Assembly: GCF_016907915.1 (NCBI RefSeq)
Contig: NZ_JAFBCW010000008.1
Span: forward strand, 1-64,000
DNA length: 64,000 nt
Direction of reading: 5' to 3'
Source: Desulforadius tongensis
GTDB taxonomy: Bacteria; Bacillota; Desulfotomaculia; Desulfotomaculales; Desulfohalotomaculaceae
Positions 40,285 to 64,000 of this stretch are shown piece by piece (position 1 is the first letter of the stretch; each line of letters opens with the position of its first letter). The notes beneath the pieces are model-generated. The model was not told the origin of the DNA, did no database searches, and saw only the letters and a list, made by a program, of their open reading frames with translations. The position numbers and the translations under genes were made by a program.

Positions 40285-40369
40285 TGGTGCGGACGGTGGG
40301 AGTCGAACCCACACGGGAAAACCCACTGGATCCTAAGTCCAGCGCGTCTGCCAGTTCCGCCACGTCCGC
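40285..40369 (-). tRNA. tRNA-Leu (anticodon TAG)
   Basis: The minus strand folds with acceptor GCGGACG/CGTCCGC, anticodon loop CTTAGGA, a long variable arm and TTCGACT T-loop. CCA is encoded at 40285-40287. Confidence 0.95.
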
Positions 40370-40381
40370 ATAAAATAATAA

Positions 40382-40457
40382 TGGTGAGCCATCCAGGACT
40401 CGAACCTGGGACACCCTGATTAAAAGTCAGGTGCTCTGCCAACTGAGCTAATGGCTC
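40382..40457 (-). tRNA. tRNA-Lys (anticodon TTT)
   Basis: Acceptor GAGCCAT/ATGGCTC, D-loop AGCTCAGTTGGCAGAGC, anticodon loop CTTTTAA, T-arm GGTTCGAGTCC. CCA is encoded. Confidence 0.96.
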
Positions 40458-40466
40458 ACTTAAAAT

Positions 40467-40541
40467 TGGCTGGGGTGGTAGGATTCGAACCTACGCATGG
40501 CGATTCCAAAGACCGCTGCCTTACCGCTTGGCTACACCCCA
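40467..40541 (-). tRNA. tRNA-Gln (anticodon TTG)
   Basis: Acceptor TGGGGTG/CACCCCA, anticodon loop CTTTGGA, T-arm GTAGGTTCGAATCCTAC. CCA is encoded. Confidence 0.95.
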
Positions 40542-40558
40542 GCATTATTCATTTATTA

Positions 40559-40636
<78 letters not shown>

Positions 40637-48518: not shown

Positions 48519-48627
48519 GAAAAGTATTCAGGGCACGTACCGGTGTGACGTCACATTACAAAACCGGCACTGGAAACCGCCAAAGCAGAGGTACTACCTG
48601 CATAATACCTTCCGGCAGTTACCCAGC

Positions 48628-48800
48628 ATACTCTGTCCTTTTGCCTGAGAGATTAACAGCACGCGCCTGCTGTTTTGCCCCTTCGGCGCCCTAATCACAG
48701 GGTCTCTCCAGAGTCCTGTCCATTTACGGTACCTGCTTTTAAAAGCACCTGAGAGTTTGACTCCTTCGGTGGGCTTTACACGCCTCTCTCCCGTAAATTT
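48628..48800 (-). promoter_or_regulatory. Tandem glycine riboswitch
   Basis: Two glycine aptamers lie in tandem on the minus strand. The first (about 48720-48800) includes GAGAGAGGCGTG, CACCGAAGGAGTCAAACTC and TCTCAGGTGC. The second (about 48628-48718) includes CTGGAGAGACCC, GCGCCGAAGGGGCAAAAC and TCTCAGGCAAAAGGACAGAG. Glycine binding is expected to control the terminator ahead of the symporter. Confidence 0.95.
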
Positions 48801-60639: not shown

Positions 60640-61836
60640 TCACCACGGGTTTTTTACAGGGTTATCTTGGGGCAAAAACAAGCTCAATAAAAACGCTGCT
60701 ATCGGCAGTAAAGTCATCACCCACAAGGCGCTGGGCGCACCAAAATGATCGGCAATGGTTCCCAGCAGTGTTACACCAATACCGCCCATGCCGATGGCAA
60801 AACCAGTCATCAGGCCGGAAGCTACACCAATCCTGTGCGGCAGCAGTTCCTGTCCCATAACCACCGTGATGGGCATGGTAGAAACTATAACCATCCCGGT
60901 AATAAACAATATAATCATCGACCATATCCCGGAACTAAACTTTAACAGCAGCAGCAGCGGCACAAGCAAAGCGGTGGATGCCACCAGGGTGCTTTTTCTG
61001 CCAAAACGATCTGCCAGCGGCCCACCGATTACAGTACCCACGGCACCGGCCAGCATAAACGAAACCACCAGAAAACTGACATAATCAGGGCTTTTACCCA
61101 AATAATTAACCCAGTACAGGGGCATAAAGTATGTCAGCCCCGCTTGAACCCAGGAACGCATTATAATTACCGCTATCAATACCGTTAAAGGTATTAAAAC
61201 CCTCTGCGGCACCTTAACTGCCGCTTCAGCATTATTACGTACCGCCGCCCGGGGCTCATCAGGTAACCTGCGGTTAAAAATAAAAAACAGTACCGCCATA
61301 ATCAAACCGGGTACAAGAAAATATATGCTGGCAAAGCGGTCAAATTTTAACAGCAGCTGCGCCATGCCCATTGAACCTAAAGCTGCACCCAGCGCCCCTC
61401 CCACTATGAAAATCGACATTCCGGTGGTACGGCGCCGGCCGCTGGCCAACCGGCTTACTTTAGATGCTTCCGGGTGATAGGCTGCTGATCCCAAACCGCT
61501 CATAAAAACCACTGCCAGTATAAACCAGTAAGAAGAAACGATACCTGCTAAGGCCAACCCGGTCATAGATAAAATGCAGCCGGTGGGAAGCAGCCAGCGG
61601 CTTTTTACCTTGTCGCTCCAGTGTCCCAGCAGCGGCTGGAGAACCGAAGAGCTGACGTTAAAAATAAGGGATACCGCACCGGCAGCACCATAAGACAAAT
61701 TCAAGGCCGCCTGTATTACCGGCAGCAGCACAGGCAGCGCCCCCGCCGCCAGATCAGTTACCAGGTGACCGGCGGAAAGAAGAACCAATACCTTGGTGCG
61801 CATAGTAGACGAATGTAACGTTTTTTCTGCAGACAA
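60640..61836 (-). CDS. MFS transporter, fosmidomycin resistance-like
   Basis: Twelve-helix major facilitator superfamily exporter. The start at TTG 61836 has GGGGGT seven bases upstream and gives 398 residues. It has VLLSAGHLVTDLAAGALPVLLP (about 18-39, split by families as the first helix), GHWSDKVKSRW and SAAYHPEASK, matching the fosmidomycin-resistance (Fsr) branch. An ATG 11 codons later is possible. True substrate unknown; divergent from cas8b. Confidence 0.85.
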   Translation of the reverse strand: MSAEKTLHSSTMRTKVLVLLSAGHLVTDLAAGALPVLLPVIQAALNLSYGAAGAVSLIFNVSSSVLQPLLGHWSDKVKSRWLLPTGCILSMTGLALAGIVSSYWFILAVVFMSGLGSAAYHPEASKVSRLASGRRRTTGMSIFIVGGALGAALGSMGMAQLLLKFDRFASIYFLVPGLIMAVLFFIFNRRLPDEPRAAVRNNAEAAVKVPQRVLIPLTVLIAVIIMRSWVQAGLTYFMPLYWVNYLGKSPDYVSFLVVSFMLAGAVGTVIGGPLADRFGRKSTLVASTALLVPLLLLLKFSSGIWSMIILFITGMVIVSTMPITVVMGQELLPHRIGVASGLMTGFAIGMGGIGVTLLGTIADHFGAPSALWVMTLLPIAAFLLSLFLPQDNPVKNPW

Positions 61837-62068
61837 AATTGCTACCCCCAATATTTACTACCATTATTTTCTGCTCTAACTCACATTAATAAATAATAAC
61901 ATATTTTCTTCTACCGGGAAATTTTGCGTATTTTTTAAAAATTTCGGAAGGATTTTTAGCAATTATTCAAAAATTTAATGTAAGCAAAAACTGATGTTCC
62001 TGCTTCGATATTTCTTAAAAGTTTAATTTTACAAAGAGCTAAAAGATATTGAGATAGGAGGTGTTTTA

Positions 62069-64000
62069 GTGAACTTACCCCAGCTGACTTCCTTTATAGG
62101 CGGTTCTGTTAAAACTAAAAATCATAATTTATTCAGTTCACTGATTAAAAAAATAAGTAAGGTAAAGGAAACAGAAACTGCCTACATCATCTCTATGATC
62201 TTTGATTTAAGGAATAGGGAAATCGATTTTAATCTGTACCAGCCGCTTACAGAAGGTTCTGCCGAACGCTACTATTATTTGGGCAACAATTCAGCAGCTT
62301 CTTCCCAATATTATCTTGTCCGGGAAACCAAATCGCTGCATTATCTATTGTCTTCCGTCTGGAACGACCTAGCGTTAACATTGGGTAAATATAATCTGCA
62401 GGGCGGAGAACTGGCGGCAATATTAGAAAAAATGGAAGCATGTAATTTAATTTCTCTGGGCTCCAAAAAAGGCGAGGGAAAGGTTAACTTAGAAAAATTA
62501 TCCATCCTAAAAGAAAAAGCTGTAACCACAGTGGAATTGGATAAAAAGGAACTTAAGGTAGACGGGAGCAAATGTAATTATGAGGCATTTATCCGCCTTT
62601 TTCTGCAGGATAACAATAAAAAGAACCGCTATGTGTTAATCATACCTGTGGTGCACATGGAAGACGGGCGGGAAATAATTCTTTCTACTCACCCTGAGTA
62701 TTTAGAACTGGTCAAACAGGCAAATAACCTGGGTGAAGGAGAAAAAAATGAAAAAAAGAATATGAAGCGAGTTTGCTACGTTTGCGGCAATAAAAAGGAA
62801 CGTGTTTCCAGTAATTATTCCGTTAAATTCAGCCGGACAGGAATTAACAAGATTTTTACTACCACCACCATCAATACTTCACCGTATTTACAAAATTATA
62901 ATTATGACAATGTTTATTCCATGTGCAGTGATTGCTATCAAAAACTATTAAACGGAGAAAAGGTTATTTCGGAACGATTCCGGGGGAAAATGGCGGGCGA
63001 AGATGTTTTCATTATTCCCGAAGGCCTGTTTAACACCTTTGATTATAACTTTATGTATAAGTTAAAACAAAATGTTGACCTGGCTTTTAAAAGCAGCAGT
63101 GCGGAGGAATGGCTGGAGGGTATCAAAAGTGCCGTTGAATTCGATGATGTAAAGTTTTATACCTTAAATTTTATCGTTTACCGCACAGACGGGAATTCAA
63201 TAACGGTATTAGAAACCATTGAAGATGTTCCCGTGCTTCGTTTCGAAAAAATTATAAAAATGCTGGCCGCTAATGTTTCTGCATTAAAACCCCATTTAAA
63301 AGAACTTTCTTTGGGCCGTATTTACGGTATTATACCGGTACAAACCAACAAAAAGGGGCAGCAGCTGGATATCGGCCGGGTTCTGTCCCTGTACAAAGCA
63401 ATTTTAGCAGGTGAGCGGGTAAACAGCCAGACTTTATTCAACTATGCCGCTGAAGCCTTAGACAAGGGGATGCGCCAGTTAAGCAAAGCCAAGCCGGATA
63501 ATTACACGAACATGGGGCTGCTGTCATACGCCGGCGGCAGAGAAGACTTCTTTATCAAAAAAATAATCATGAGCTACCTGGTTCTGTTCCGGACCATACG
63601 GCAGCTGAATATTCTTGAACATCCGGGCTGCCGCAGCATGAGAAAGGGGGAGAAAAAGTTGCGGAAAATTGATACCGTTTCTGAAAAGATTAATACATCT
63701 GTAGAAGAAATGGAAAAGTTTCTGAATGATCAAGAATTCAGTAATGCGGCAAGGGCTTTATTCTATTTAGGTGTTTTGATAAATCGTGTAGCCATCGCCC
63801 AGTATCAAAAAGAACATAAGACTAAACCCATCTTAAAAAAAATACAGTTTCAAGGAATGAAGGACAAAGAGGTATATTGGTTATACCAGGATGTGCTGGA
63901 AAAGCTGCGGCAGTACAACAAATTTACTTTATTTACCGAAGCTGTAATCAATCGTTTCCATAATTATTATGGCAGCCTGCAGGCCCCCTGGCCGCTTAGC
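62069..64000 (+). CDS. cas8b: Type I-B CRISPR-associated protein Cas8b/Csh1 (partial, runs off the window)
   Basis: Large Cascade subunit thought to recognise the PAM and the target. GTG 62069 has AGGAGGTG five bases upstream, and I translated an unbroken frame of 644 codons to the last base. A zinc-finger pair is visible: C236-x2-C239 (CYVC) and C286-x2-C289 (CSDC). The C-terminal part reads like Cas8b: FYLGVLINRVAIAQY near residue 565, then KIQFQGMKD and EKLRQYN. The cas7, cas5 and cas3 genes would follow beyond the edge. It is the first gene after the divergent MFS gene, with no cas6 or CRISPR array seen upstream. Confidence 0.85.
   Translation, partial: MNLPQLTSFIGGSVKTKNHNLFSSLIKKISKVKETETAYIISMIFDLRNREIDFNLYQPLTEGSAERYYYLGNNSAASSQYYLVRETKSLHYLLSSVWNDLALTLGKYNLQGGELAAILEKMEACNLISLGSKKGEGKVNLEKLSILKEKAVTTVELDKKELKVDGSKCNYEAFIRLFLQDNNKKNRYVLIIPVVHMEDGREIILSTHPEYLELVKQANNLGEGEKNEKKNMKRVCYVCGNKKERVSSNYSVKFSRTGINKIFTTTTINTSPYLQNYNYDNVYSMCSDCYQKLLNGEKVISERFRGKMAGEDVFIIPEGLFNTFDYNFMYKLKQNVDLAFKSSSAEEWLEGIKSAVEFDDVKFYTLNFIVYRTDGNSITVLETIEDVPVLRFEKIIKMLAANVSALKPHLKELSLGRIYGIIPVQTNKKGQQLDIGRVLSLYKAILAGERVNSQTLFNYAAEALDKGMRQLSKAKPDNYTNMGLLSYAGGREDFFIKKIIMSYLVLFRTIRQLNILEHPGCRSMRKGEKKLRKIDTVSEKINTSVEEMEKFLNDQEFSNAARALFYLGVLINRVAIAQYQKEHKTKPILKKIQFQGMKDKEVYWLYQDVLEKLRQYNKFTLFTEAVINRFHNYYGSLQAPWPLS

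Follow-up and report, generated by a model that had tools for sequence, protein, structure and literature searches.

The leaders of CRISPR arrays belonging to a type I-B locus in Desulforadius tongensis open with a palindrome of about 50 bp. That this leader palindrome is a real, widespread and spacing-constrained element of type I-B arrays is well supported. It is phased with the leader-repeat junction in steps of about one helical turn, and we consider it rather likely that it acts in spacer integration as double-stranded DNA, by providing a docking or bending site.

The type I-B locus

The window, which is the whole stretch of 64,000 nucleotides that was analysed, comprises positions 1 to 64,000 of a contig of 104,540 bp (C8), and coordinates on C8 continue the window numbering. 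Judged from sequence comparisons, the gene at the window edge is cas8b, the large-subunit gene of a type I-B CRISPR-Cas locus that is complete apart from cas6 (Table 1). An earlier note had read the plus-strand frame of 644 codons as the start of Cas8b/Csh1 with paired CxxC zinc motifs and a C-terminal segment, and both features (CYVCGNKK..CSDCY and FYLGVLINRVAIAQY) are present in the protein. Comparison with Cas8b profiles, which the note had proposed, bears out this assignment. The full protein of 685 amino acids matches Pfam Cas_TM1802 with an E-value of 3e-54 and 185 bits (cut-off 25) and the PADLOC Cas8b profile with an E-value of 3e-62, and it also matches NCBIfam cas_TM1802 and cas_Csh1, each under the curated cut-off. 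A sequence search for relatives with a solved structure gave none, six other genomes of the family are without a Cas8b relative of the C8 type, and a search of GTDB contigs for named relatives confirmed none.

The note had also placed cas8b first in its operon, with neither cas6 nor repeats in the gap to the divergent MFS gene. This agrees with the contig, where the remaining cas genes all lie downstream and the 217-bp gap has no cas6, no repeat and no leader palindrome. Extension past position 64000 recovered most of what the note had suggested searching for, namely cas7, cas5, cas3, cas1, cas2 and a repeat array, but cas6 is absent from the operon. The cas7, cas5 and cas3 genes lie together with cas8b in one operon, which is adjoined by a Cas4-Cas1-Cas2 adaptation module. 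The C8 locus is an ordinary type I-B system, and cas8b adds one more such locus. It is like the Hmari-type I-B system (Cas8b/Csh1, Cas7/Csh2, Cas5h, Cas3, Cas4, Cas1b and Cas2) in gene content, gene order, HMARI-type Cas1 and CRISPR-DR2 repeat, and differs from it in the missing cas6 and in the NCBIfam scores of Cas8b. No target match was found when the 24 spacers of the C8 array were compared with 50,697 phage records.

Table 1. Positions of the cas8b locus and of other features on C8 and further contigs of the genome
Feature	Contig	Position	Strand	Remark
Four-tRNA gene cluster	C8 (window)	40288-40635	-	
Glycine riboswitch	C8 (window)	48623-48721	-	
MFS gene	C8 (window)	60640-61851	-	divergent from cas8b
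Intergenic gap	C8 (window)	61852-62068		217 bp; contains the cas8b ribosome-binding site AGGAGGTG
cas8b/csh1	C8 (window)	62069-64000	+	GTG start at 62069, preceded by AGGAGGTG; codons 1-644 of 685, open through base 64000; stop, and gene end, at contig position 64126
cas7	C8	64148-65200	+	directly downstream of cas8b
cas5	C8	65185-65976	+	
cas3	C8	65964-68549	+	HD plus helicase
cas4	C8	68622-69131	+	
cas1	C8	69103-70137	+	HMARI type; TIGR03641, 480 bits, cut-off 304
cas2	C8	70149-70424	+	
Leader palindrome	C8	70425-70474	+	
Remainder of leader	C8	70475-70593	+	
25-repeat array	C8	70594-72218	+	RF01315 CRISPR-DR2
Tandem duplication	C8	77735-78616		L002:16736-17617; 440-bp duplication affecting a small membrane-protein gene; 97% identity across 300 bp
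Selenocysteine tRNA gene	C8	79158-79250		L002:18159-18251; Rfam tRNA-Sec
Second complete I-B operon	C13	1-12741		L024; 36-bp repeat
Orphan cas6	C5	1029-1880		
Orphan cas6 with preceding elements	C5	498-1880		L029; leader palindrome and single degenerate repeat ahead of cas6
Relic leader	C26	4251-4304		L220

cas6 and the second type I-B system

Type I-B systems usually have a cas6 gene, although it need not lie inside the operon. The genome has only two cas6 genes, on C5 and C13, and Cas6 for the C8 system is presumably supplied in trans. The repeats of C8 and C13 have the end ATTGAAAC in common, and therefore either Cas6 could act in this way. The C13 gene belongs to a second I-B operon, of the Cst/Tneap type, with cas6, cas8b1/cst1, cas7, cas5, cas3, a cas4-cas1 fusion and cas2. 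This operon is flanked on both sides by long repeat proteins with GLKEIKxEV-like units, encoded on the minus strand. The final stretch of about 20 residues in the orphan Cas6 of C5 is found again at the end of a DUF2399/DUF3323 protein, which adjoins a duplicated YitT-like gene (C5 6857-8700). In a relative (G006), the cas6 start of the I-B operon is preceded at 54 bp by one repeat (L060:5371-5453) that has a normal leader end but no palindrome; this repeat could be a crRNA-like regulator or a mini-array.

The leader palindrome in the genome

The repeat family of the C8 array has six more leader-bearing arrays, one each on C35, C6 and C3 and three on C16, with leaders that are 87-91% identical to the C8 leader across about 210 bp. 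All seven full leaders open with the palindrome, which reads AATGTCGTCGAYCCCCGGTAGTGTAATTTTYCCGGGGGATYGACGACATT and has the arms GTCGTCGAYC and GRTCGACGAC around a centre, RRTAGYGYAAAAA, that is conserved and asymmetric; the core half-sites lie 31 bp from each other. The AATGTCGTCGAYCCCCGGTAGTGTAATTTTYCCGGGGGATYGACGACATT pattern, with up to 3 mismatches allowed, does not occur in the genome outside these leaders. A covariance model adds one genomic match, the relic leader on C26, where the palindrome and the leader end are followed by merely the first eight bases of the repeat.

The C8 adaptation module seems to be shared by seven arrays or more. The C8 array (L002:10950-10985) and the C35 array (L025:94-128) have one spacer in common, identical at the 5' end and different by one base at the 3' end, which fits independent acquisition, as if the spacer had been taken twice from one protospacer. 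The end of C16 and the start of C35 both fall inside an array at an identical spacer, and therefore these contigs are probably neighbours.

The second system has no GTCGAC palindrome. It has a palindrome with other arms and nearly the same centre, CGAGCACCCTGGGCTGTGCAAAAAACCCCGGGGTTGCTCG, located 190 bp before the array and following the scheme CGAGCA..TGTGCAAAAAACC..TGCTCG. A second copy of the CGAGCACCCTGGGCTGTGCAAAAAACCCCGGGGTTGCTCG type is found on C5, about 191 bp before the single repeat ahead of the orphan cas6. This variant was first spotted by eye and then checked by pattern, and a pattern search of 113 genomes found it in its own genome only. A general scan for other arms around the same centre returned nothing, probably because the arm test was too strict for the bulge.

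Distribution and association with Cas1

Relatives in the family that have the C8 repeat carry a palindrome at the same place, and the remaining leader has diverged. A degenerate pattern scan of one genome per species (84,980 species) gave 69 places in 68 stretches, found in Clostridia, in Listeria and other Bacilli and in one genome each of Sebaldella (Fusobacteria) and Fretibacterium (Synergistota); a MAG with the label Acidobacteria contributed two contigs. In Firmicutes the palindrome stands ahead of I-B arrays in many genera. At 43 of the 69 places an array was detected that begins no more than 400 bp downstream and on the same strand, nearly always at about 100-150 bp, and many of the remaining places are contig ends or single repeats. 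The inner arms and part of the centre were prescribed by the scan pattern, and their invariance in the alignment follows from this. The outer arms lie outside the pattern and vary in a compensatory fashion (C-G/T-A, T-A/C-G and G-C/T-A). With the covariance model the element was detected in 48 of 113 genomes of the class, representing 32 of 55 genera, and an array lies directly downstream in 42 of the 60 places that were read. Palindromes before CRISPR repeats were also seen on viral or phage-like contigs (L225 and L226 from IMG/VR, and L230, the Aneurinibacillus plasmid pAT1, beside phage genes).

The element tends to occur together with HMARI-type Cas1. It is present in 44 of 64 genomes with an HMARI Cas1 over the cut-off and in 4 of 49 without it (Fisher 2e-11, uncorrected for kinship), leaving 20 HMARI-Cas1 genomes with no match to the element. 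Among genomes with only another Cas1 (E<=1e-20), it is found in 3 of 25. In 38 of the 39 genomes compared, the element follows the HMARI cas1 at 282-615 bp, at the point where cas2 ends.

Stepped spacing to the first repeat

For 73 mutually dissimilar leaders, the distance to the first repeat was measured from the inner 3' end of the palindrome. The values cluster at 99-101, 109-114, 122-128, 134-139 and 145-150 bp, that is in steps at about 101, 111, 124, 136 and 148 bp separated by near-empty gaps, and only three leaders fall outside the clusters (117, 130 and 158 bp). The best-fitting period is 12.2 bp (R 0.71), a fit that none of 5000 jitter nulls reached. Relatedness among the leaders is controlled only in part; with one value per genus and cluster (n=27) the period is 11.8 bp (R 0.67, again 0 of 5000 nulls).

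Such steps might have been inherited from a few ancestral leaders and have no mechanical meaning. Related genomes do share lengths, and some relatedness survives the similarity filtering. Moreover, one turn of relaxed B-DNA is 10.5 bp, which the fitted step of 11.8-12.2 bp exceeds, and R at 10.5 bp is just 0.29. Inheritance alone is nevertheless unlikely to be the explanation, in that different steps are found inside one genus and even inside one genome: 111 and 124-125 bp in g27, 112 and 149 in g17, 114, 124 and 135 in g29, 117 and 127 in G006, and 128 and 139 in G001. These differences within a genus or genome amount to about 10, 11, 10, 11, 13-14, 30 and 37 bp. In leaders with the GTCGAC type of palindrome, third half-sites between palindrome and array are not enriched (3 seen, 7.6 expected).

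Possible function

The reading that we favour, and think rather probable, is that of a docking or bending site. The palindrome would act as double-stranded DNA, and its binder might be the Cas4-Cas1-Cas2 complex, a partner protein or the two together. Looping or bending of the DNA would bring it to the correct helical face and thereby restrict spacer insertion to the first repeat. Its job would, by analogy, parallel that of IHF together with upstream motifs in types I-E and I-F. Several observations count against this reading: the fitted step is longer than 10.5 bp, the outer arms change in a way that would also suit a hairpin, not every leader has a recognisable promoter, and the match with HMARI Cas1 is incomplete in both directions. 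So do six places where the palindrome or a variant faces the other way at 49-62 bp from arrays with different repeat types (L180, L196, L199, L213, L221 and L222).

Array promoters that can be recognised usually lie between the palindrome and the first repeat. Many leaders have good sigma-70 promoters between the palindrome and the array (L088, L069, L089, L077 and L114), for example TTGACA-N16-TATAAT, with a -10 box that ends 12-15 bp before the first repeat, and L225 has the same arrangement as judged by eye. A promoter score of at least 9.5 is reached in 40% of leaders compared with 16% expected, and a promoter is not recognised in every leader. Upstream of the palindrome -10 boxes are not enriched (14 seen, 12.9 expected). 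The downstream promoters and the stepped spacing therefore favour a role as DNA.

A DNA role could also be that of a binding site for a transcription activator or repressor that controls the array promoter; its phasing would then be to the promoter and thus only indirectly to the repeat. The dyad symmetry, with core half-sites about three turns apart, and the location upstream of the -35 box would suit such a regulator, the distance from promoter to repeat is near-constant in several leaders, and Csa3a performs both jobs in Sulfolobus (PMC9456107). However, the place of the promoter is inconstant in many leaders whereas the spacing to the repeat is stepped, and the palindrome is linked to the Cas1 subtype, which makes this explanation doubtful.

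The outer arms change in a compensatory fashion, as would be expected of a hairpin, either RNA or cruciform, but also of a dimer site with co-evolving halves. A structured RNA, either a hairpin in the leader transcript or a separate small RNA regulating array expression or crRNA processing, would explain the stable predicted hairpin (z -8.0 for the DNA fold and -3.5 for the leader RNA fold), the 118 double-changed cells in the outer stem compared with 63 in shuffles, and the conserved asymmetric centre. We regard it as unlikely, because good promoters lie downstream of the palindrome and before the array, no surplus of -10 boxes exists upstream, an RNA gives no expectation of stepped spacing, palindromic protein sites likewise change both halves together, and Rfam has no match. 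Counts of G-U versus A-C mismatches were dropped as evidence for RNA, since the excess at the main position might be due to base composition.

A reading as intrinsic terminator of the cas operon, copied along with the array, is very improbable: on C8 the palindrome comes right after cas2 and has ATTTTT at its end, but in homologues the hairpin often precedes A-rich sequence lacking a T run (GGAAAAA, GACAATT and similar), and the palindrome is kept at arrays distant from cas genes across many genera.

Comparison with known leader motifs

The palindrome resembles IHF sites and upstream motifs in being a leader DNA motif phased to the leader-repeat junction, and is unlike them in its length, its conserved asymmetric centre and its occurrence in type I-B systems of Firmicutes. 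IHF sites and upstream motifs of I-E, I-F, I-C and II-C leaders have reportedly been described by Santiago-Frangos and co-workers in 2021, and the palindrome may be listed there. Buyukyoruk and co-workers are said to have catalogued diverse CRISPR leader motifs in 2025 (CRISPR J), which could also include it.

In the Sulfolobus I-A leader, a leader-distal motif at -143 to -94 is bound by Csa3a and needed for efficient adaptation (PMC9456107). It lies at a similar distance from the first repeat but belongs to an archaeal I-A system. Listeria leaders are conserved and contain an RpoD promoter (PMC3886909). A study of structured RNAs in CRISPR operons presents 156 candidates, some of them palindromic and near arrays; its main text mentions one palindrome at about 50 bases from I-G arrays, further ones within coding regions and none in I-B leaders (PMC9067536). 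In the I-B system of Clostridioides difficile, two conserved inverted-repeat motifs occur in all leaders, upstream of every array (PMC8406132). One phage-borne array region of C. difficile has no GTCGAY motif, and the Rfam search gave no match of the leader near a gathering score.

Most Firmicutes are not known to have IHF, which raises the question of how their I-B integrases locate the leader end. It is possible that Firmicutes I-B adaptation modules with an HMARI-type Cas1 rely, instead of IHF, on a palindromic leader site that is helically phased and has not been described before, with arms matched to the adaptation module and a centre shared between modules, as the palindrome of the second system would illustrate. 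A conserved, phased palindrome tied to one Cas1 subtype is a specific sequence to mutate, to shift or to use as bait, and it could allow arrays to be assigned to their adaptation module by the leader.
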